Source: Gammaproteobacteria bacterium
Lineage (GTDB): Bacteria > Pseudomonadota > Gammaproteobacteria > Steroidobacterales > PWYM01
Direction of reading: 5' to 3'
Assembly (NCBI GenBank): GCA_003567475.1
Contig: PWZL01000080.1
Coordinates: 1 to 64,000, forward strand
DNA: 64,000 nt
Position 1 is the stretch's first letter. Each line of letters opens with the position of its first letter. The notes below the pieces were generated by a model, which was given only the letters and a program-made list of their open reading frames with translations, was not told the origin of the DNA and did no database searches. Shown here one piece after another: positions 1,308 to 22,806 of this stretch. The position numbers and the translations under genes are program-made.

Positions 1308-2630
1308 TCAGCTGCGCGCGAGCTGGCGCTGGAGATCCTGCCGGCGCGACACCTCCCGCTCGATGAATTCGATCCACTGATTTGCCGTACGGCGGCTCCG
1401 ATCATCAGCGCGAGCAGCCCGAAACGCCGTCTTGGCAGGCTCGTATTGCTGCAGTTCGTACAGGCACATCCCGAGCACCACATTCGCGGTGTCGGTTCGC
1501 CGCAGTCCGCCGCGGCTGAGTCCAGCGCGGGCGGCCTCGACGCATTCCTGATGCTGATCGAGATTCAGGAAGGACTGCGCGAGCTGCAGATACAGCTGGC
1601 CATCCCCCGAGCGGCGCGCGGCCTCCTGCAGTGGCGGGATTGCGCGGCGATCGTCCTGCGCCATCATCCATGCCTGCGACAGCAGCCGGTAGTTGCGTTC
1701 ATTACGCTCGACAATACCTTCAGACATGCCCCGGTCGAGAATCCTGGCGCCCTTGTAGGGTCCACCGGACTGCATGTAGAGCTGAGCGAGCTGAACGATC
1801 TCATTTTCGCGATCCATGAGCCCGTCTTCGTAAATGGCCTCCAGCACGGCCACCTGGCGCCGCTGCAACCCAAGCTCGCCGTACACGGCTGACAGATGAG
1901 TCCAGTATTCCTTTTTCGGCCAACGGGTCACCAGCAACTCGAGCACTTCTCTGAGGCGGGCGGTATCCTCGAGCTGGAAATAGCCCGCACGGAGCAGGCC
2001 ATACCACTCCTCGCGTGCGCCGCCGTCCCGATCCCGTTCCGCGATCTCGATCGCGCGGTTCAGATACTCCACCGACTGCCGGTACTGCTCAAGCTGATAA
2101 TGCGCGACGGCAAGCAGGTAGAAAGGATCCCCTCCCGGGTTCTCGGCAGAGGCCAACCAACGGTTGCCGTACTCCAGCGCCTTCTGGTACTGCTCGGTTG
2201 CCATTGCCAGCTGCACCAGCGTCCACAGGGTGTCGTTCATGAACCCCTGCGGCAGATCCGGAAGCGCCACCACCTCTTCAAAGGCCCGCACCGCCGCCGT
2301 CAGATTCTCCTGCTGGTAATCGATCAAACCGGTGAAATAGAGGATCTGCCCTCGCTCGTAGCTGTTGAGATCCTGAATGGTCCTGATGCGGTCGAGCTCG
2401 CGGCGCGCCCCGGCATAGTCGTCCTCTTCAAGGCGCTCCTGGGCCGCAGACAGCCCCTGAAACACGCGTTCCCGCAGGGCCTGGACCTGCCGCGTTTCCT
2501 CCTCCTGAGCCACCGCACTGGTCACCGGCGAGAACTCGCCCGGTCCGGCAACGAACCACATCGCGAGGGCTGCAGCCGCCGCGGCGGCTACCGGTCCCCG
2601 GCGGGTCCGGGGGGTTGCTGAAGTCTCCAT
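1308..2630 (-). CDS. TPR-repeat protein of a TonB2-type system
   Basis: A 440-residue protein with an N-terminal hydrophobic segment (about residues 10-30, Ala-rich, then an AVAQ-like cleavage region), so probably exported to or anchored facing the periplasm. It is followed by many degenerate tetratricopeptide helices over most of its length (for example YLLAVAHYQLEQYRQSVEYLNRA in two halves). The start at 2630 has a strong GAGGAGG Shine-Dalgarno eight bases upstream. An alternative ATG at 2660 overlaps the tonB stop as TGATG and would add ten residues. It is last in a six-gene operon. In Vibrio-type TonB2 clusters a TPR protein occupies this position; its exact role is unknown, probably a scaffold for the Ton complex or its receptors. 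Confidence 0.8.
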   Translation of the reverse strand: METSATPRTRRGPVAAAAAAALAMWFVAGPGEFSPVTSAVAQEEETRQVQALRERVFQGLSAAQERLEEDDYAGARRELDRIRTIQDLNSYERGQILYFTGLIDYQQENLTAAVRAFEEVVALPDLPQGFMNDTLWTLVQLAMATEQYQKALEYGNRWLASAENPGGDPFYLLAVAHYQLEQYRQSVEYLNRAIEIAERDRDGGAREEWYGLLRAGYFQLEDTARLREVLELLVTRWPKKEYWTHLSAVYGELGLQRRQVAVLEAIYEDGLMDRENEIVQLAQLYMQSGGPYKGARILDRGMSEGIVERNERNYRLLSQAWMMAQDDRRAIPPLQEAARRSGDGQLYLQLAQSFLNLDQHQECVEAARAGLSRGGLRRTDTANVVLGMCLYELQQYEPAKTAFRAARADDRSRRTANQWIEFIEREVSRRQDLQRQLARS

Positions 2631-2659
2631 TTCTGCCGCCTCCTCTCGCACCACTGCCA

Positions 2660-3259
2660 TCAATCCTCCAGCCGGAAGGTGATACGGAATCTGACCCCAG
2701 GGACGTCAACGGGTTCACCGTCGATCACTCTCGGGCGGTAGCGAAACCGCATCACGGCATCGATGGCTGCACTGTCAAAGATGGAATTTGAGGATTCCAC
2801 CACAAAGGGATCGCGCACTGTACCCTGCCGCGTCACCGTGAACTCGAGCGTCACCCAGCCCTCAAGGCCACGCATCTGCGCCCGACGGGGGTAATTAGGC
2901 GCGACCTGCACGATCGGCATGTACTCGCCATCACTGAAAAAGCCATCTCGACCGATGTCCATGTCGTGGGAAACGGAAGGCGCCGTGACACCAATGCCCG
3001 CGCCGGCCGCCATATCCATGTCATCCATCTGCCGATCCGGCTGATCCGGGGGCGGCGCATCCGGCTCGGGCGGCCGCTCTGGCCGGTCCTCGCGCGTTTC
3101 GGTCTGCTCTTCGCGCTGGACACGCACGAAGTCGACAAACCTGAACGTGCGCTCGTCGGTCAGCGCAGGGACACCCATGACGATCAGGTACTGCATCACC
3201 CACAGCAGCGTAAAGGTGACGAACGTACCCACCACCACGGAGATCAGGATCCTCACCAT
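2660..3259 (-). CDS. tonB: energy transducer TonB
   Basis: A 199-residue periplasm-spanning protein. Residues 4-30 form a single inner-membrane anchor, about 55-80 are rich in Pro, Glu and Asp (PPEPDAPPPDQPD), and the C-terminal 85 residues match the TonB C-terminal domain (YPRRAQMRGLEGWVTLEFTV, then AIDAVMRFRYRP). It passes proton-motive energy from ExbB/ExbD to outer-membrane receptors. The short linker resembles TonB2-class proteins rather than the long Pro/Lys linker of E. coli TonB. A GGAGG box lies eight bases before the ATG. The gene follows exbD by 79 bp and is translationally coupled to the TPR gene. Confidence 0.93.
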   Translation of the reverse strand: MVRILISVVVGTFVTFTLLWVMQYLIVMGVPALTDERTFRFVDFVRVQREEQTETREDRPERPPEPDAPPPDQPDRQMDDMDMAAGAGIGVTAPSVSHDMDIGRDGFFSDGEYMPIVQVAPNYPRRAQMRGLEGWVTLEFTVTRQGTVRDPFVVESSNSIFDSAAIDAVMRFRYRPRVIDGEPVDVPGVRFRITFRLED

Positions 3260-3338: not shown

Positions 3339-3749
3339 TCAGGTCTCCTGCGCCGCGATGGACACATTGAAGACACCTGCCTGGCGGGCCGCGTCCATCA
3401 CCTGGATGAGGGTCTCGGTCACCGCCTTCTTGTCCGCCTGAATCACCACCGAACCCTCGGGGTTCTCGGCGTGCAGCCGCTCGATGTTGGCCCGCAGCGC
3501 GCGGGGATCCACCTGACGACGGTCGATCCAGATCTCGTTGTTCTCGGAGATCGCAATCAAGATGTTGGCCCGCTCCTGCCGCACAGCCGTCTGTGCATCA
3601 GGACGGTTCACATCAATACCGGCTTCCTTGACGAACGACGCCGTCACGATGAAGAAGATCAGCATGATGAACACCACGTCGAGCATCGGCGTGATGTTGA
3701 TTTCGTTCTCTTCCTCTTCGCTCGCAGCTCCAGCGAAATTCCTGCGCAT
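3339..3749 (-). CDS. exbD: biopolymer transport protein ExbD
   Basis: A 136-residue ExbD/TolR protein: a short acidic cytoplasmic N-terminus, one transmembrane helix at about residues 22-41 and a periplasmic domain. Asp24 in the motif NITPMLDVVFIML is the protonatable residue conserved in the family and essential for coupling to proton flow. It partners the two ExbB-type proteins encoded just upstream, 11 bp away. Together they energise TonB. Confidence 0.94.
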   Translation of the reverse strand: MRRNFAGAASEEEENEINITPMLDVVFIMLIFFIVTASFVKEAGIDVNRPDAQTAVRQERANILIAISENNEIWIDRRQVDPRALRANIERLHAENPEGSVVIQADKKAVTETLIQVMDAARQAGVFNVSIAAQET

Positions 3750-3760
3750 GGCTTGATCCC

Positions 3761-4288
3761 TCAGTGATCCATCGTGAGCTCGTCTTCGAGCAGTTCAACT
3801 TCACGGTTGGCGCGGTTGGTCAGAATGGTGGCGAACAGCACCCCTGAGAGCGCGCCCACCATGCCTGCCATCGTGGGGATCGTGGCTTTCGACACCCCTG
3901 AGGCCATGGCACGCGCGTTGCCCGTGCCGGTGACCGCCATCACGTCGAAGACCTCGACCATCCCGGTGACCGTGCCCAACAGGCCCAGTAGCGGACATAG
4001 TGCCACGAGGGTCTTGATCATCGGCAGGCCGGCATTCGCCGACAGCCTGACCTCTGACACCAGCGCCTGGCGAATGTTGGCGGCTTCCCAGGATTTGCGT
4101 TCAGGACGCGCCTCCCACCGGCGGAACACCTCGCGGCTCTGCTTCTTCAGTGCTGTGTTGAAGTAGATGAACCGCTCAAGGATCAGCACCCACATGAAGA
4201 AGATGGTCCACCCGATTATGACCAGTACGTCCCCTCCAAGTTCAAGGAAGTCGCGTATCGGTTCCCACATATCAATCAGCAGTTGCAT
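3761..4288 (-). CDS. exbB: biopolymer transport protein ExbB (short form)
   Basis: A 175-residue MotA/TolQ/ExbB proton channel subunit. It has three hydrophobic segments: about residues 20-40, then the family core LCPLLGLLGTVTGMVEVF near 95-115, and a third near 135-160. It forms the membrane stator with ExbD. This is the second ExbB-type gene in the operon; the longer one directly upstream is a TtpC-like protein. Such a pair, followed by exbD and tonB, is the arrangement of the Vibrio TonB2 system. Confidence 0.93.
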   Translation of the reverse strand: MQLLIDMWEPIRDFLELGGDVLVIIGWTIFFMWVLILERFIYFNTALKKQSREVFRRWEARPERKSWEAANIRQALVSEVRLSANAGLPMIKTLVALCPLLGLLGTVTGMVEVFDVMAVTGTGNARAMASGVSKATIPTMAGMVGALSGVLFATILTNRANREVELLEDELTMDH

Positions 4289-9964: not shown

Positions 9965-10677
9965 GTCGCCTGTTGCTGGTCCGGCATGGCCAGGCATCGT
10001 TTTTCGGCGACGACTACGATCGGTTGTCCCCGCAGGGCCTGCTGCAGGCGCGCCGGCTTGGCCAGCATCTCGCGGACACGGGCGTCACCATCGACGTCAG
10101 CTATGTCGGTCCGCTGCGGCGCCACCGGGAAACCGCGGAGGCGGTCGCCACCAGCTACCGCGCCGCCCGCGGCGACTGGCCCGCCGAACAGTCGGTCGCG
10201 GCGCTCGCCGAGCATGAGGCCGCTGCGGTGATGAAGAGCGTCCTGGGGCTGGCGGAGGCCTCGGGAAACGGCGGGCTCTCGCAGGTCCCTTCAGAAGATC
10301 CCGCCGAACGCCGGCGCCTCATTCGCGACTACTTCCGGCGCTGGGAGCAGGTGTCGCGACGCTGGATCGACGGCGAGTTCACCGACCTGCCGCATGAACC
10401 CTGGCAGACTGCCCGCCAACGCGCAGCGGAGGCCCTGGCGCTGATGACCGCGCCCGGCCGCGCGGGCGACACCCGAATCGCCTTCTCCTCCGGCGGTCTG
10501 ATCTGCATGATTGTGGGCGAACTGCTCGGTCTGGACGACCAGCGGATCTTCGATCTGAGCCTGGTGTTCGGCAATTGTGCGATCACCGAAATCCGGTTTT
10601 CCGGACAGCGCCGAACCCTCGCCGGGTTCAACCTGACCCCGCACCTGGTGGCTGACGGACTGGCCACGATGGTCTGA
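9961..10677 (+). CDS. histidine phosphatase family protein
   Basis: A 238-residue member of the phosphoglycerate-mutase-like superfamily. The catalytic RHG motif (LLLVRHGQASFF) is at residues 5-15, with a second Arg in YVGPLRRHRETAE near 55 and a C-terminal His region that is less clear. Start is GTG, overlapping the stop of the reductase gene. The substrate is unknown. Co-transcription with SDR and MDR genes suggests a role in the same lipid or CoA pathway; small-molecule phosphatases of this type are often companions of such operons. Confidence 0.82.
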   Translation: MSRLLLVRHGQASFFGDDYDRLSPQGLLQARRLGQHLADTGVTIDVSYVGPLRRHRETAEAVATSYRAARGDWPAEQSVAALAEHEAAAVMKSVLGLAEASGNGGLSQVPSEDPAERRRLIRDYFRRWEQVSRRWIDGEFTDLPHEPWQTARQRAAEALALMTAPGRAGDTRIAFSSGGLICMIVGELLGLDDQRIFDLSLVFGNCAITEIRFSGQRRTLAGFNLTPHLVADGLATMV

Positions 10678-10705: not shown

Positions 10706-10734
10706 TTGACAGCCTCGGTTGTATACAACATGAT
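10706..10734 (+). promoter_or_regulatory. promoter of the leucine operon, with palindrome in the spacer
   Basis: A perfect consensus -35 box TTGACA (10706-10711) is followed by exactly 17 bp and CATGAT (10729-10734, 4/6 to the -10 consensus). The spacer contains the perfect palindrome TTGTATACAA (10719-10728), a shape common for GntR-type operators, so a repressor may act here as well as the attenuator. Initiation would fall at 10741-10742, at the A of the leader-peptide ATG. Confidence 0.7.
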
Positions 10735-10741
10735 CGGACTC

Positions 10742-10855
10742 ATGAACGTGGTTGCGCCCAGCCCCGCCTCGCGCCTCACAGGCTCGCTGCCTGTGCAGGG
10801 TGTCCTTGCCGGCCTTCTCCTTCTTAGCCGCTCGAGGTGCGGGCTGTCCGGCTGA
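10742..10855 (+). CDS. leucine leader peptide (attenuator control peptide)
   Basis: A 37-codon frame lies between the leucine promoter and the terminator ahead of the operon. It contains eight leucines, four of them consecutive (CTT CTC CTT CTT at 10814-10825). These are unusual choices in a genome that otherwise prefers CTG, as expected for a sensor of charged leucyl-tRNA. The stop (TGA, 10853-10855) lies downstream of the antiterminator strand. No Shine-Dalgarno is seen before the ATG, which coincides with the predicted transcript 5' end; translation may be leaderless, or start at the in-frame GTG at 10748. Confidence 0.8.
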   Translation: MNVVAPSPASRLTGSLPVQGVLAGLLLLSRSRCGLSG

Positions 10856-10888
10856 ACGCCACGTTTCGCTGAACACCAACCCCGCACC
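10836..10888 (+). promoter_or_regulatory. antiterminator of the leucine attenuator
   Basis: GGTGCGGG (10836-10843) is a perfect 8-bp complement of CCCGCACC (10881-10888), which contains the left arm of the terminator, so the two structures exclude each other. AGCCGC (10826-10831), directly after the Leu codons, can pair with GCGGGCT (10839-10845) to block the antiterminator. A ribosome stalled on the Leu codons covers the first strand and frees 10836-10843 (read-through). A ribosome at the stop codon covers that strand, and the terminator forms. Confidence 0.8.
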
Positions 10889-10913
10889 GGCAGACGATGC
10901 GGGGTTTTTTTTT
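10879..10913 (+). terminator. leucine attenuator terminator
   Basis: ACCCCGCA (10879-10886) and TGCGGGGT (10898-10905) form an 8-bp stem with an 11-base loop, followed by an uninterrupted run of nine T (10905-10913). It lies about 40 bp before the first structural gene and just after the leucine leader peptide: a classic attenuator terminator. Confidence 0.93.
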
Positions 10914-10953: not shown

Positions 10954-12051
10954 ATGATCGATCAACGCCTGCCGGCCCAGCTGGCCGCGACCGACTGGGG
11001 TGCCGAGCCGGAGCAGCCGGAGTCCCCGGCGACTTTCACCGACATCGAAGCCGCCGCTGAGGTGATCGCCGCGTGGCTGCAACCAACCCCCCTCATCCGC
11101 CACCCATTGCTCAATCAGCGCGCCGGCTGCGATCTGTGGGTGAAACTCGAGAACGCCCAGCCGGTCGGTTCTTTCAAGATCCGCGGCACGCTGAGCCTGC
11201 TGGCTGCGCTGACCCCCGAACAACGCGCCGCGGGACTGGTTACGGCCACCCGCGGCAACTTCGGTCAGGCACTCGCACGCGCCGCAGCCCTCTACGGTGC
11301 CCGCTGCACGATCTTTGTGCCCATGGGTAATGCGCCTGGCAAGAACGCCGCCATGCGGGCCACCGGCGCCGAAGTCATCGAACGGGGCCACGACTTCGAC
11401 GCCGCCTGGGATGCCGCAGTGCGCCACGCGCGCCGCAGTGGTCAACCCTGCCTCCACCCCGCCCGTCACCGCGCACTGGTCGCGGGCCAGGGCACCGTGG
11501 CGCTGGAGATGCTGCGCCAGGTCTCCAAGCCGTTCGATGCGCTCATCGTGCCCGTTGGCGGCGGCAGCCTGGCAGCCGGCACCGCGCTGGCCGCCCGCAG
11601 GCTCAGCCCGGGAACCCGTCTCATCGCGGTCCAGGCCGAGAACGCACCGGCCTTCCACCATGCCTGGCACACTGGCGAGGATCGCGCATTTGCGACCGCG
11701 CCGACGATTGCCGATGGCCTGGCCAGCCGGATACCCGTCGCCTACACGATGTCGGTGCTGCGTGAGCACATCGACGAGTTCGTGACCGTCAGCGAGGCCG
11801 AGATCGCCGCAGCCATCCGGCTATACCTCGAGACCGTGCACCAGCTGGCCGAGGGCGGCGGCGCCGCGCCCCTCGCCGCAGCCTGCAAGCTCGCCGGCGA
11901 GCTCTCGGGCAGCCGTGTCGGCGTCGTGCTCAGCGGCGGCAACATCGATGTCAGCACCTTGCGCGCGGTGCTGGACGAGGCGCCGCCTCAGCACCACCCG
12001 CAAGCCATGGGGATCTACCCCATGTCTTCCCTGGACTACGGCAGCCGTTGA
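10954..12051 (+). CDS. threonine dehydratase-like PLP enzyme (catalytic domain only)
   Basis: A 365-residue fold-type II PLP enzyme. The Schiff-base lysine is Lys75 in PVGSFKIRG, the substrate/phosphate loop reads TATRGNFGQ (rather than the common SAGNHAQ), and the cofactor-phosphate loop is GGGSLAAG near 195. It is expected to deaminate threonine to 2-oxobutyrate, the isoleucine precursor, or serine to pyruvate. It has no C-terminal ACT-like regulatory domain, so it is shorter than biosynthetic IlvA (about 510). It is the first gene under the leucine attenuator, ahead of leuA and ilvE, which supports a branched-chain role and suggests control by expression rather than by isoleucine feedback. 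Confidence 0.82.
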   Translation: MIDQRLPAQLAATDWGAEPEQPESPATFTDIEAAAEVIAAWLQPTPLIRHPLLNQRAGCDLWVKLENAQPVGSFKIRGTLSLLAALTPEQRAAGLVTATRGNFGQALARAAALYGARCTIFVPMGNAPGKNAAMRATGAEVIERGHDFDAAWDAAVRHARRSGQPCLHPARHRALVAGQGTVALEMLRQVSKPFDALIVPVGGGSLAAGTALAARRLSPGTRLIAVQAENAPAFHHAWHTGEDRAFATAPTIADGLASRIPVAYTMSVLREHIDEFVTVSEAEIAAAIRLYLETVHQLAEGGGAAPLAAACKLAGELSGSRVGVVLSGGNIDVSTLRAVLDEAPPQHHPQAMGIYPMSSLDYGSR

Positions 12052-12118: not shown

Positions 12119-13687
12119 ATGACTTCAATGGCAGATGACAACCGCGTGAAGATCTTCGACACGACGCTGCGTGACGGCGAGCAGGCCCCGGGCTGCAGCA
12201 TGACTCTCCGGGAAAAGCTCCGTGTCGCCCAGGCGCTTGCCGACCTGCGAGTGGACATCATCGAGGCCGGTTTCCCAGCCGCGTCCCCAGGCGATTTCGA
12301 GGCCGTCCAAGCCATCGCCGGCACGGTCCGCGGCCCGGTGATCTGCGGTCTGGCGCGTTGCAACCCCGCCGACATCGAGCGCGCCTGGCACGCCCTGCGT
12401 GACGCCGAGCGCAAACGGATTCACGTGTTCGTTGCCACCAGCGCCATTCACCGCGAACACAAGCTGCAGATGGCCAAGGACGAGATCCTCAAGAGCGCGG
12501 TCGAAGGCGTCAAGCTGGCTCGCAGCTACTGTGACGACGTGGAATTCTCCCCTGAAGACGCCTCTCGCACTGAGCTCGAATACCTGGCCGAGGTCGTCGC
12601 TGCCGTCATCGAAGCCGGTGCCCGCACGATCAACATTCCAGACACCGTAGGCTACACGGTGCCGGGCGAATTCCACGAGGTTTTCCGCTATCTCAAGCAG
12701 CACGTGCCCGGCATCGACGATGTGGTGCTGTCGGTCCACTGTCATGATGATCTCGGGATGGCCGTGGCCAACAGCCTCGCTGCCGTGCAGGCCGGCGCGC
12801 GTCAGGTGGAGTGCACGATCAACGGCATCGGCGAGCGGGCCGGAAACTGCTCGCTCGAGGAAGTCGTCATGGCGCTGAAAACCCGGGAGGCCTACTTCGG
12901 GCTGCATACGGGGATCGATTCACGGCGCCTGTATCCGACCAGTCGGCTGGTCTCCTCGATCACCGGCATGCACGTCCCGCGCAACAAGGCGGTGGTTGGC
13001 GAAAACGCCTTCGCCCATGAAGCCGGTATCCATCAACACGGCATGCTGCGTCACCACGCCACCTACGAGATCATGCGCCCGGAAGATGTCGGGATCAGCC
13101 GATCCAACCTGGTGCTCGGCAAGCATAGCGGTCGGCATGCGTTCCGCGAGCGGGTCGAACAGCTCGGCTTCCGCCTGGATGATGCCGAACTCAAGCGCTG
13201 TTTCGATGAGTTCAAGAAGCTGGCCGATCGCAAGAAGGAGATGTTCGACGCCGATATCGAGGCGATTCTCATGAACGCCGAAACCGGCCAGGCGGGTTTC
13301 TGGCGCATGGAGGAACTCCACATCACCGCCGGCACCGGGACGATTGCCGCAGCAGCCGTCAAGCTCATCTCGGAGGAACACGATGAGGTCCAGGAAGCGG
13401 CCGTCGGCGACGGACCGGTGGCCGCGGCATTCCGTGCGCTCGAGCGTGCCACCGGCATCGAACTGGTGCTGAAGAACTTCGAATTGCGCAGCGTGACCCT
13501 CGGGAATGACGCTCAGGGTGAGGTGACCGTGACCGTCGAATATAATGGGCAGTCCTTCAGGGGTCAGGGCCTGTCCACGGATATTGTCGAGGCGGGTGCA
13601 CGCGCCTATCTGGAGGTCATCAACCGCATCCAGCGGCGACTGCGCAGCACTGCCGCCGAGCCCGCCGCGGCGGCGGCGAGCGCCTGA
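12119..13687 (+). CDS. leuA: 2-isopropylmalate synthase
   Basis: A 522-residue LeuA, close to the usual length. It condenses 2-oxoisovalerate with acetyl-CoA, the committed step of leucine synthesis. The TIM-barrel signature DTTLRDGEQ is at residues 14-22 and the metal-binding HCHDDLG motif near 207. The C-terminal regulatory domain, where leucine binds in the family, is present from about 390 to the end, so feedback inhibition adds to attenuation. GGAG lies eight bases before the ATG at 12119. Second gene of the operon. Confidence 0.96.
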   Translation: MTSMADDNRVKIFDTTLRDGEQAPGCSMTLREKLRVAQALADLRVDIIEAGFPAASPGDFEAVQAIAGTVRGPVICGLARCNPADIERAWHALRDAERKRIHVFVATSAIHREHKLQMAKDEILKSAVEGVKLARSYCDDVEFSPEDASRTELEYLAEVVAAVIEAGARTINIPDTVGYTVPGEFHEVFRYLKQHVPGIDDVVLSVHCHDDLGMAVANSLAAVQAGARQVECTINGIGERAGNCSLEEVVMALKTREAYFGLHTGIDSRRLYPTSRLVSSITGMHVPRNKAVVGENAFAHEAGIHQHGMLRHHATYEIMRPEDVGISRSNLVLGKHSGRHAFRERVEQLGFRLDDAELKRCFDEFKKLADRKKEMFDADIEAILMNAETGQAGFWRMEELHITAGTGTIAAAAVKLISEEHDEVQEAAVGDGPVAAAFRALERATGIELVLKNFELRSVTLGNDAQGEVTVTVEYNGQSFRGQGLSTDIVEAGARAYLEVINRIQRRLRSTAAEPAAAAASA

Positions 13688-13713: not shown

Positions 13714-14658
13714 ATGCCCATCCAAGCGAGTCGCTTCATCTGGTTCAACGGCAAACTCGTCCCCTGGGAGGACGCCAACGTTCACGTCCTCTCGCACGCG
13801 CTGCATTACGGTTCATCGGTGTTCGAGGGCATCCGCGTCTATCGCGGCCCCACAGGCAGCCAGATCTTCCGGCTCGAGGAACATCTTCAGCGACTGCACG
13901 ATTCGGCCAAGATCTACCGCTTTCCCATCCCCTATGACGTCCCCACCCTGGCGGCGGCCTGCAAGCAGGTCATCCGCGACAACGGACTGGAAAACGGCGC
14001 CTATATCCGACCGGTAGCGTTCCGTGGCTATGGTGAGATCGGGCTTGCAGCCAAACCCGATCATCGCGTTGACACGGCCATCGCCGCATGGGAATGGGGC
14101 GCCTACCTCGGCGCCGAGGGCATGGAAAAAGGGGTTGATGTCTGCATTTCCTCCTGGCAGCGGGTCGCCCCCAACACCCTGCCCGCGCTGGCCAAAGCCG
14201 GTGGCAATTATCTCTCAAGCCAGCTGATCAGCATGGAGGCACGCAGGCTCGGCTTCGCCGAGGGGATTGCGCTGACCACCCGCGGCACGGTCAGCGAAGG
14301 CGCGGGTGAAAACGTGTTCGTGGTCAAGAACGGGCGGATTTTTACCCCGACGGCGACCGATTCGATCCTCACCGGCATCACCCGCGACACCATCATCACG
14401 CTCGCACGGGAGGCCGGGCTCGAAGTGATCGAAAAGGAACTGCCCCGCGAGATGCTGTATCTCGCCGACGAGATTTTCCTGACCGGTACCGCTGCGGAAA
14501 TCACCCCCGTGCGCTCGGTGGATCGTCTGGAGGTCGGCGCCGGCCGCCGGGGTCCCGTGACAGAGATGCTGCAGTCGCGGTTCTTCGGTCTGTTCGACGG
14601 TTCGACCCCGGACCGCTGGGGATGGCTTGACCCGGTCGAAGACAGCACAGCGGCCTGA
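13714..14658 (+). CDS. ilvE: branched-chain amino-acid aminotransferase
   Basis: A 314-residue fold-type IV PLP aminotransferase interconverting Leu/Ile/Val and their 2-oxo acids with glutamate. The PLP lysine is Lys161 in the family motif LAKAGGNYLSSQ, and the N-terminal HALHYGSSVFEGIR matches IlvE exactly. It sits inside the leu operon between leuA and leuC, so the last shared step is made with the pathway enzymes. Confidence 0.95.
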   Translation: MPIQASRFIWFNGKLVPWEDANVHVLSHALHYGSSVFEGIRVYRGPTGSQIFRLEEHLQRLHDSAKIYRFPIPYDVPTLAAACKQVIRDNGLENGAYIRPVAFRGYGEIGLAAKPDHRVDTAIAAWEWGAYLGAEGMEKGVDVCISSWQRVAPNTLPALAKAGGNYLSSQLISMEARRLGFAEGIALTTRGTVSEGAGENVFVVKNGRIFTPTATDSILTGITRDTIITLAREAGLEVIEKELPREMLYLADEIFLTGTAAEITPVRSVDRLEVGAGRRGPVTEMLQSRFFGLFDGSTPDRWGWLDPVEDSTAA

Positions 14659-14712: not shown

Positions 14713-16119
14713 ATGAGCGCCAAATCGCTTTTCGCCAAGGTATGGGACGACCACATCGTCGTGCCTGAATCCGACGACCATCCGGCCGTCCTGTACATCG
14801 ACCTGCACCTGACCCACGAAGTGACTTCACCGCAGGCGTTTTCGGTATTGCGGGAACGCGGGCTGCCGGTGCGGCGCACCGACCTGACGCTGGCGACCAT
14901 GGATCACTCCACGCCGACGCTGCCGGTCCGCAGCTTCAAGGATCTCGAGGTGGTGGCTGAACCCAAGGCAGCCGCACAGATCGTGAAACTCGACAAGAAC
15001 TGCGCGGAGTTCGGGGTCAAGCTGCACGGTTTCGACAGTGAATACCGGGGTATCGTCCATGTCATCGGCCCGGAACTCGGCGCCACCCAGCCGGGCAAGA
15101 CGATTGTCTGCGGCGACAGCCATACGTCGACACACGGCGCCTTCGGCGCGCTTGCCTTCGGCATCGGCACGACGGAAGTCGGCCACGTCATGGCGACCCA
15201 GTGTCTGTTGCAGCGCCGGCCGAAGACCTTCGCGGTCAACTTCGAGGGACAGCTTCCGCACGGCGTGACCGCCAAGGACATGATCCTCGCGCTGATCGGG
15301 CAGATCGGCGTCGATGGCGGTGTCGGGCACGTATTCGAGTACCGGGGCAGCACGATCGCCGGGCTCGACATGGAACAGCGGATGACCATCTGCAACATGT
15401 CAATCGAGGCCGGCGCCCGCGCCGGCATGATCGCGCCCGACGACACCACTATCGAGTACCTGGCCGGGAGGCCGCTGGTGCCCCAGGGTCAGGCCTGGGA
15501 GGCGGCCGTTGCCCGCTGGCGCAGCCTCCCCTCGGATCCCGATGCACGCTTCGACCGGGAAGTGACCCTGGACGTCTCCGCACTGCGCCCGATGGTCACG
15601 TTTGGCACCAATCCGGGCATGGTGGTGGCGATCGACGACGCCATCCCCGAGCGCAGCGACGCGAATTTCCGCAAGGCGCTGGAGTATATGGGTGTGACGG
15701 CCGGACGCCCGCTGGCCGGACATCCGGTGGATATCGTGTTCGTCGGCAGCTGCACCAATTCCCGGCTCTCCGACCTTGAACAGGCGGCTGCCGTGATGAA
15801 GGGCCGGCATGTGGCGAAGGGCGTGCGCATGCTGGTCGTGCCGGGCTCTCAACAGGTCAAGAAGGCCGCCGAGGCCCGGGGACTCGACCGGGTATTCACC
15901 GAGGCCGGCGCGGAGTGGCGGGAGTCCGGCTGCTCGATGTGCCTCGGCATGAACGGTGACACCGTGCCTTCCGGGCAGCTCGCCGTCAGCACCAGCAACC
16001 GCAACTTCGAGGGTCGCCAGGGCAAGGGGGCACGCACCGTACTGGCCAGCCCCGCCACGGCGGCTGCCAGCGCACTTGCCGGCAGCGTGGCCGACCCCCG
16101 CCCCTACCTCGCGAACTGA
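14713..16119 (+). CDS. leuC: 3-isopropylmalate dehydratase large subunit
   Basis: A 468-residue aconitase-family subunit that isomerises 2- to 3-isopropylmalate together with LeuD. The three [4Fe-4S] ligands are Cys347 (GSCTNSR), Cys407 and Cys410 (CSMCLGMN), and [13 protein letters not shown] near 135 contributes active-site residues. AGGGAG precedes the ATG. It is 11 bp upstream of leuD. Length and every motif are canonical. Confidence 0.97.
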
Positions 16120-16130
16120 GAGAGACTGCC

Positions 16131-16715
16131 ATGGAACCCATCAGCGTCATCCGCTCGCGCACGGTCGTTCTGCCCTACGACGATGTCGACACCGACCAGA
16201 TCATCCCTGCGCGCTACCTGACCACCACCACCCGCGAGGGCCTTGGCGAAGCCGCCTTCGCCGACTGGCGTTACGACGCGCAGGGCGAGCCTCGCGCCGA
16301 CTTCGAACTCAATCGCCCGGAGGCGGCGGGCTGCCGGGTGCTGGTGGCCGGCCACAACTTCGGCTGCGGTTCCTCACGTGAACACGCGCCCTGGGCCCTG
16401 CTCGACTACGGCATTCTGGCTGTGATCAGCACCGAAATCGCCGATATCTTTCGCAGCAATTCCCTCAAGAACGGGCTGCTGCCAGTGGTGGTGGATCAAC
16501 AGGCCCACGCCTGGCTGCTGGCCAACCCCGGCGCCGAAGTCAGCATCGACCTGGGGGCACGCAAGGTCAGCCTGCCGGATGGCCGAGAGGTGGCATTCCC
16601 CATCGACGGATTCTCGCGGTATTGCCTCATGAACGGTATCGATCAGCTGGGTTTCCTGCTGCAGCAGGAAGCCCAGATCGTCAGCTTCGAGCAGAACCGC
16701 CCATGGCAGCCCTGA
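16131..16715 (+). CDS. leuD: 3-isopropylmalate dehydratase small subunit
   Basis: A 194-residue aconitase swivel domain that completes the LeuCD enzyme. Recognisable motifs are [15 protein letters not shown] near residue 20 and [17 protein letters not shown] near 75. It is slightly shorter than the E. coli protein (201), the difference being at the C-terminus. Its last 13 bases overlap the start of leuB, pointing to translational coupling. Confidence 0.96.
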
Positions 16716-17758
16716 TTGCCGTCCTGCCCGGGGACGGCATCGGGCCGGAGGTGACCGCGGAGGCGGTGCGGGTGCTCGAGGCCGCCAGCGAGCGTCACGG
16801 CCTGCAACTCGAATTCCGGGAAGGCCTCATTGGCGGCGCGGCCCTGGATGCCGGTGAGCCCCCGCTGCCGGTGAAAACGGCGCAACTGTGTGGCGGCGCC
16901 TCGGCCGTACTGCTTGGCGCCGTGGGCGGGCCGAAATGGTCCGACCCAGGGGCGGCCTACCGCCCGGAGCAGGGCCTGCTCGATCTGCGCGCCACGCTGG
17001 GCGTGTACGCCAACCTCCGTCCCGTGAAACCCCATCCGGCGCTGCTGGCCGCCTCGCCACTGCGGCCTGAGCTGCTGGCTGGGGTGGACATCATGGTGGT
17101 CCGTGAGCTCACCGGCGGCATCTACTTCGGGCGCAAGACCCGCAGCGAGTCGGTCGCCACCGACGAGTGCCGCTACACCGTCGAGGAAATCGAACGTATC
17201 GTCCGGATGGCGGGGCAGCTGGCCCGGGGACGGCAGCGGCGGATCGTGTCGGTCGACAAGGCCAATGTGCTCGAGACCTCCCGGCTCTGGCGGGCGGTCA
17301 CGGCCCAGGTGCTGGCAGAGGAATTCCCGGATGTCGACCTCGAACATATGCTGGTCGACGCCGCCGCGATGCACCTGCTGAGCCGTCCGGCCAGTTTCGA
17401 TGTCATCGTCACCGAAAACATGTTCGGTGACATCCTGACCGACGAGGCCTCCATGCTCGCCGGCTCGCTGGGTTTGCTCCCATCAGCCTCGCTCGGCGAG
17501 GGCGGCCGTGGCCTCTACGAACCGATCCACGGCTCTGCCCCCGACATCGCCGGCCAGGGCATCGCCAACCCCTGTGCCACGCTGCTCAGTGCCGCGCTGT
17601 TGCTGCGCCACTCGCTGGACTGCGAACCCGCAGCACGCGAGATCGAGGCTGCCGTCTCCGCGGTCCTCGACGAGGGCGTCCGCACGGCTGATCTGGCGCG
17701 CGGGGGGACGAGCGTTGGCACGCGGGCTTTTGGCGACGCCGTGCTGGCGAAACTCTGA
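16703..17758 (+). CDS. leuB: 3-isopropylmalate dehydrogenase
   Basis: A 351-residue NAD-dependent beta-decarboxylating dehydrogenase that produces 2-oxoisocaproate. The start [17 protein letters not shown] overlaps leuD. Family motifs include [12 protein letters not shown] near 133, the metal-site [14 protein letters not shown] near 235, and the NAD-adenine loop [18 protein letters not shown] near 272. Last gene of the leucine operon, followed by a large stem-loop. Confidence 0.96.
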
Positions 17759-22537: not shown

Positions 22538-22678
22538 CTTCGCTGACGCTCCACGGGCCTGACTGATGACCACACCCTCCGGGGTGCGGCGCTCTGCCCA
22601 TCGAAGCAGCCGACAGTCGCTGCCGGCGGGAGGACGTCATGCGCCTGCCTGGCCTGGTCGGCCAGTCGTCGCTCGACC

Positions 22679-22798
22679 CTCATCTGTCGCAGTGCGCCTG
22701 ATCGGCGTCCCGCGCAGGAGTTGGCACCTTGTCGAGGTGGTGAGCCCCGATGGTTGCCCCGGCGTCACTGGGCCTGTCCCTCAGCCGGTCTCGATGAG
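22679..22798 (-). ncRNA. SAM-I (S-box) riboswitch
   Basis: Read on the minus strand, the aptamer shows all conserved S-box blocks in order: P1 strand CTCATC with GAG, then GAGGGACAGGCCCAGTGA, CCGGGGCAACC, AAGGTGCCAACTCC, and the closing GACAGATGAG. P1 pairs CTCATC (22798-22793) with GATGAG (22684-22679). It lies upstream of metB-metY-metX. No poly-U terminator follows. A CACCC-CGGA-GGGTG hairpin that buries a GGAGG sequence (about 22570-22586) suggests control of translation, though the expression platform is an inference. Confidence 0.95.
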
Positions 22799-22806
22799 CG
22801 CTGAGG

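Follow-up and report, generated by a model that had tools for sequence, protein, structure and literature searches.

A putative leucine attenuator with a predicted leaderless leader frame ahead of a dehydratase-leuA-ilvE-leuCDB operon, and related leaders across its order

Genes at the locus

In the stretch of DNA analysed here, 64,000 nucleotides long and referred to below as the window, a leader region (10706-10913) lies between a phosphoglycerate-mutase-like gene, which ends at 10677, and a mixed ilv-leu operon on the plus strand. The first gene of the operon is not leuA, but encodes an IlvA/TdcB-like threonine (or possibly serine) dehydratase (10954-12051); leuA, for 2-isopropylmalate synthase (12119-13687), ilvE, for a branched-chain aminotransferase (13714-14658), leuC (14713-16119), leuD (16131-16715) and leuB (16694-17758) follow. 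NCBIfam and Pfam assignments confirm this order, which an initial annotation, made from the letters alone, had already proposed.

The dehydratase scores just over the cut-off of the NCBIfam model NF004771, 'threonine dehydratase' (321.5 bits, cut-off 317), and features in Pfam the PALP fold only, without the C-terminal regulatory domain Thr_dehydrat_C. A separate canonical IlvA of 505 aa, endowed with a C-terminal regulatory domain, is encoded at another locus of the same genome. The operon enzyme may have a role other than that of IlvA, threonine and serine being indistinguishable as its substrate at the sequence level.

Other genes of the pathway are found elsewhere in this genome. ilvC lies beside a divergent gene of the LysR family, in a layout resembling ilvY-ilvC (L069, on contig G000:C56, 1462-3503), and its product shares about 55% identity with the IlvC encoded in the operon of a related genome, G001. 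At a further locus (L053, on G000:C46), ilvB, for the large subunit of acetolactate synthase (1501-3225, minus strand), is transcribed divergently from an ACT-domain-like ORF (3401-3964, plus strand) resembling the regulatory subunit of the same enzyme; the covariance model of the leader described below, R1, has no match near this acetolactate synthase gene. Within the window, a SAM-I riboswitch (RF00162, 77.5 bits) is found at 22677-22800 on the minus strand, directly upstream of minus-strand genes (22573 to 18859) resembling those of methionine/cysteine biosynthesis.

Promoter and leader reading frame

A consensus scan identifies a sigma-70-type promoter on the plus strand at 10706-10734, composed of a -35 hexamer TTGACA (10706-10711), a 17-nt spacer and a -10 hexamer CATGAT (10729-10734), with 10 of 12 consensus matches; in shuffled versions of an 8.2-kb region, 0.6 promoter-like sites are expected on average. 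The promoter is conserved in the leaders of the genus, all six of which carry TTGACA followed by a 17-nt spacer, the -10 hexamer being CATGAT, GATGAT or CAGTAT.

The spacer contains a palindrome, TTGTATACAA (10719-10728), not mentioned in the initial annotation, and all genomes of the genus have it in the spacer of their leu promoter. Three copies are found in the 3.06-Mb genome, as against 0.26 expected from base composition: one is that in the leu promoter, while the other two (L073, 1393-1402; L074, 1501-1510) belong to the region upstream of gltB and to a divergent promoter at an HMG-CoA-lyase/CaiB cluster. This cluster encodes a GntR-FCD protein, whose gene (L123, 3663-4526, minus strand) is about 6 kb from the copy of TTGTATACAA belonging to the cluster. 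The GntR/FadR operator consensus has been given as NyGTM-N0-1-KACNy (PMC4494728), and TTGTATACAA, located as it is within a promoter, fits its palindromic form. The palindrome is thus a candidate operator of a GntR/FCD-type repressor, and we infer the GntR-FCD protein of this cluster to be the putative binder of the three sites. No such palindrome was seen in the leaders read from other families, and a literature search found no paper describing an operator of this kind among those listed.

Seven nucleotides past the -10 box, an ATG at 10742 opens a reading frame of 37 codons, MNVVAPSPASRLTGSLPVQGVLAGLLLLSRSRCGLSG, which ends with a TGA at 10855 (10742-10855, plus strand) and contains the run CTT CTC CTT CTT (10814-10825). 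Considering both strands of the 64-kb window, this is the only ORF of 15-60 aa to contain four Leu codons in a row. CTT accounts for 5.7% of the Leu codons in ten neighbouring genes, versus four out of eight in the leader.

The short distance between the -10 box and the ATG is a common feature of these leaders. Among 55 leaders from the genus (g1) and families f6, f15 and f3, 46 have an in-frame ATG 6-8 nt past the -10 hexamer, whereas other distances are seldom seen, and a search upstream of these starts revealed no Shine-Dalgarno-like motif; the leader transcript is therefore predicted to begin at its own start codon, so that the leader ORF would be leaderless in the genus and in the three families. 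In the leaders of family f5, the ATG is located about 28 nt from the -10 box.

RNA segments and their folding

Four segments may be recognized in the leader RNA. Segment 1, the protector, is predicted by folding of 10742-10850 in the AGCCCCGCCTCG region (10759-10770) and pairs with segment 2 around 10762-10768; this helix had not been noticed in the initial annotation. Segment 2 (10836-10843), the 5' arm of the antiterminator, is GGTGCGGG, the exact complement of CCCGCACC at 10881-10888, and contains a GCGGG core found in 25 out of 25 aligned leaders. Segment 3 (10880-10888) supplies both the 3' arm of the antiterminator (10881-10888) and, overlapping it, the 5' arm of the terminator (CCCCGCA, 10880-10886). 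Segment 4 (TGCGGGG, 10898-10904) closes the terminator stem and is followed by nine T (10905-10913). The antiterminator overlaps the end of the leader ORF, and the intrinsic terminator sits between the leader ORF and the first gene. The promoter, the 37-codon leader with its four consecutive Leu codons, and an 8-bp antiterminator excluding a nine-T terminator, all put forward in the initial annotation, are thus present in the sequence, and the two RNA structures are mutually exclusive on paper.

The region 10706-10913 folds better than all of 200 shuffled sequences (z = -3.3). For RNA from 10836 to 10895, as would be free with the polymerase just past segment 3, the antiterminator has the lowest energy (-26.8 kcal/mol), while from 10866 to 10913 the terminator alone forms (-19.0 kcal/mol). 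In the ribosome-free leader RNA the best predicted structure combines protector and terminator. After synthesis of segment 4, and also when a ribosome is stalled on the leader, the terminator is predicted to be the more stable of the two structures (-32.3 versus -29.4 for the antiterminator): given this slight advantage in the full transcript, the switch would depend on the order of folding, as in known attenuators.

Conservation within the genus

Three further genomes of the genus carry a matching leader ahead of the same dehydratase. In all four genomes with this dehydratase-first operon, the one containing the window included, the run of four Leu codons is kept, in a peptide whose N-terminal part differs between them. 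The spacing of the elements is also constant in 4 out of 4 genomes: 13 nt separate the last Leu codon from GCGGG, and the stop codon ends at a distance of 17 nt from GCGGG. The initial annotation had named leader codons not conserved as Leu in relatives as an outcome that would speak against attenuation; the opposite is observed.

In a fifth species of the genus, G001, the cassette precedes an ilvC-dehydratase-leuA operon and has the same two upstream neighbours as in the window, ADH and PGM; on a LeuA tree, the dehydratase-first operons of the window's genus group beside G001. Judged from this gene order, it is most likely that ilvC was lost from the front of the operon, leaving the dehydratase in first place. 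Two contigs of G001, L045 and L046, contain nearly the same leader-ilvC-dehydratase-leuA region, and are probably strain variants within one metagenome bin.

An order-wide family of leaders

A covariance model, R1, built from the 3' part of 25 leaders, finds matches at E <= 1e-4 in 288 of the 396 genomes that represent the order, a tally that takes in weak matches within the order. At 80 further loci, scoring about 53 bits or more, ilvC, leuA or ilvB genes follow in every case, and the commonest layout, ilvC-leuA-(ilvE)-leuCDB, lacks a dehydratase. Across a sample of genomes from the class, R1 matches 67 out of 369 in all, mostly at less than 40 bits, the matches being fewer and weaker outside the order; those outside the order falling below about 40 bits may represent ordinary terminators. 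The usual arrangement within the order is ilvC-leuA lacking a dehydratase, ilvB-ilvM and the dehydratase varying among lineages, and the notion that long ilvC-ilvB-ilvM operons are ancestral and were shortened by stepwise loss was rejected on the wider sample.

The GCGGG:CCCGC core hardly varies among the 25 aligned leaders, and terminator positions pair in 94% of the cells. No compensatory changes were found in the antiterminator/terminator core of these leaders, and covariation of the two stems, which the initial annotation had suggested as a check, lends no support: the core pairs do not vary, so that covariation argues neither for nor against the switch. A test in which segments 2 and 3 were cross-paired between families is significant (p = 0.00065) only if sequences are counted as independent; with families as the units, own pairs come 18th out of 120, which is not significant. 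An automatic search of a wide region for the best partner of segment 2 produced spurious GC-rich duplexes and uneven p-values, and was dropped. At one locus, L047, the GCGGG core is kept although it lies outside the ORF, which indicates conservation as RNA.

Control codons and operon content

Codons were counted in the 20 residues preceding segment 2; at the 80 further loci, Leu/Ile/Val content decided which frame was taken, apparently wrongly in at least two cases (L189 and L196). Leaders of operons containing ilvB (n = 12) hold on average 2.8 Ile and 6.4 Ile+Val codons, as compared to 0.56 and 2.2, respectively, in operons without it (n = 93), while Leu codons are equally frequent in both groups (6.3 and 6.3). 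For Ile codons the Mann-Whitney test gives p ~1e-8, a value computed on non-independent rows; the ilvB-containing class needs at least two changes on the LeuA tree. Ile and Val control codons thus go with the presence of ilvB(-ilvM) in the operon, a pattern that a sensing role of these codons would predict, and leaders are otherwise dominated by Leu. One exception was found, G032, in which an Ile-Leu-Val-rich leader stands directly ahead of the dehydratase, ilvB-ilvC being located elsewhere.

G032 (L034/L077, L113) thereby provides a second, independent instance of an attenuator placed directly ahead of the dehydratase. At L204 (G153), a leader with Leu, Ile and Val codons is found ahead of a long operon containing ilvC-ilvB-ilvM-leuA-leuC-leuD-ilvA, separated from ilvC by a gap of about 1.7 kb, which holds one or more genes.

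Discussion

The elements described above are those of a ribosome-mediated transcription attenuator sensing charged tRNA-Leu, and we put the probability that region 10706-10913 works in this way at about 0.93. The mechanism is a classical one, a stalled-ribosome leucine switch, in which the transcription start, ribosome stalling, termination and the response within the cell are what we infer from the layout. RNA polymerase would start at or beside A10742, and the leader mRNA would probably open with its own AUG. With ample leucine, the ribosome would read through CTT CTC CTT CTT as far as the stop codon at 10855 and cover segment 2, allowing segments 3 and 4 to pair, and transcription would end in the nine T near 10910. 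With leucine in short supply, the ribosome would stall within the run of control codons, and its leading edge would reach no further than about 10835; taking the usual value for the ribosome footprint, an A site in any of the four Leu codons would place this edge one base short of segment 2. Segments 2 and 3 would then pair, and the polymerase would continue into dehydratase-leuA-ilvE-leuCDB. When translation is absent, segment 1 would hold segment 2, and the terminator would form.

Other readings may account for parts of this architecture. The hairpin lies about 200 nt downstream of the phosphoglycerate-mutase-like gene, and terminators are common in such gaps: it might be only the 3' terminator of that gene, and the Leu-rich ORF a product of chance. 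A promoter and a conserved leader with four Leu residues, however, stand between the gene and the hairpin, the same cassette is found ahead of ilvC/leuA-type operons in other families, and the short ORF is the sole one of its kind in 64 kb; given these features we rejected the idea, which has hardly any chance of being correct. T-boxes and riboswitches also use terminator/antiterminator switches, so that a ligand- or tRNA-binding element, rather than translation, might be thought to control the terminator. In the leader region, however, no Rfam match reaches its cut-off, and a permissive scan returned weak matches only, Trp_leader and Leu_leader among them, the best at 20 bits versus a cut-off of 39; furthermore, what is conserved ahead of segment 2 is the run of codons rather than a folded domain. 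This very improbable alternative was discarded on the results of the Rfam scans.

A trans-acting small peptide and sRNA, peTrpL/rnTrpL, have been reported in S. meliloti (PMC7298713), where trpL has the very layout predicted here, a leaderless ORF and a terminated RNA. That our leader acts mainly as such a peptide or sRNA, attenuation being secondary, is nonetheless improbable, as the N-terminus of the peptide varies from species to species within the genus, and conservation is found in the parts that attenuation needs. We also regard it as rather unlikely that leucine control is mainly exerted at initiation, by a GntR/FCD protein acting through TTGTATACAA, with the attenuator as a minor fine-tuner. 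The presence of the palindrome in the promoter spacer throughout the genus, and again at gltB and at the cluster encoding a GntR-FCD protein, favours a role of this kind; yet TTGTATACAA is confined to the genus among the leaders read, whereas the attenuator is order-wide, the link between regulator and site is itself putative, and a GntR layer and an attenuator can coexist.

Taken as an attenuator, the locus resembles leuL, the leader of the E. coli and Salmonella leuABCD operon: both have a short leader ORF in which four Leu codons, including uncommon ones, follow one another, the protector/antiterminator/terminator logic and leuABCD-type genes downstream. In contrast to leuL, the leader ORF is predicted to be leaderless, the first gene encodes a dehydratase, ilvE is part of the operon, and the Rfam model RF00512 (Leu_leader) scores 13.7 bits, below its cut-off of 50.

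A Leu-responsive attenuator on a mixed operon, through which leucine affects other branched-chain pathways, is already known from the ilv-leu operon of S. aureus, whose leader also holds three Ile codons (PMC5794164); that system, however, belongs to a Firmicute, has CodY as a second layer and is unrelated in sequence. In Xanthomonas campestris, an ilvCGM-threonine dehydratase-leuA operon has been shown to be co-transcribed (PMC12575087), and here too a threonine dehydratase gene directly precedes leuA in a mixed ilv-leu operon, but the operon starts with ilvC-ilvG-ilvM, and an attenuator is not mentioned in that report. Attenuator leader ORFs whose transcript starts at the start codon are represented by Streptomyces leuL1, MRFGLLLLSCRGEGL, a leaderless Leu leader peptide without a typical terminator (PMC8079986), and by S. 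meliloti trpL, where the start was measured (PMC7298713). These systems, found in other phyla or classes, have shorter peptides, and their leaderless state is a measured one, while ours is predicted.

By sequence comparison, the family of leaders is order-wide, absent from Rfam and not so far named. The comparative work on proteobacterial attenuators by Vitreschak et al. 2004 may already list related cases. We give about even odds to the broader picture in which order-wide leucine attenuators have leaderless ORFs in several families and codons that track operon content, with a GntR-type operator layer added in the genus.

As to the physiology of the operon, leucine attenuation, as proposed in the initial annotation, is borne out, but its further suggestion, that leucine supply would set the expression of a step feeding isoleucine, is weakened by the full-length IlvA encoded elsewhere and by the missing regulatory domain of the operon enzyme. 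This corrects the idea that a dehydratase-first operon puts the entry into isoleucine synthesis solely under leucine control. About 100 natural versions of one attenuator, in operons that have gained or lost ilv genes, may reveal how sensing codons follow the pathway, and the same family lets one ask if attenuation works without a 5' UTR on the leader mRNA.
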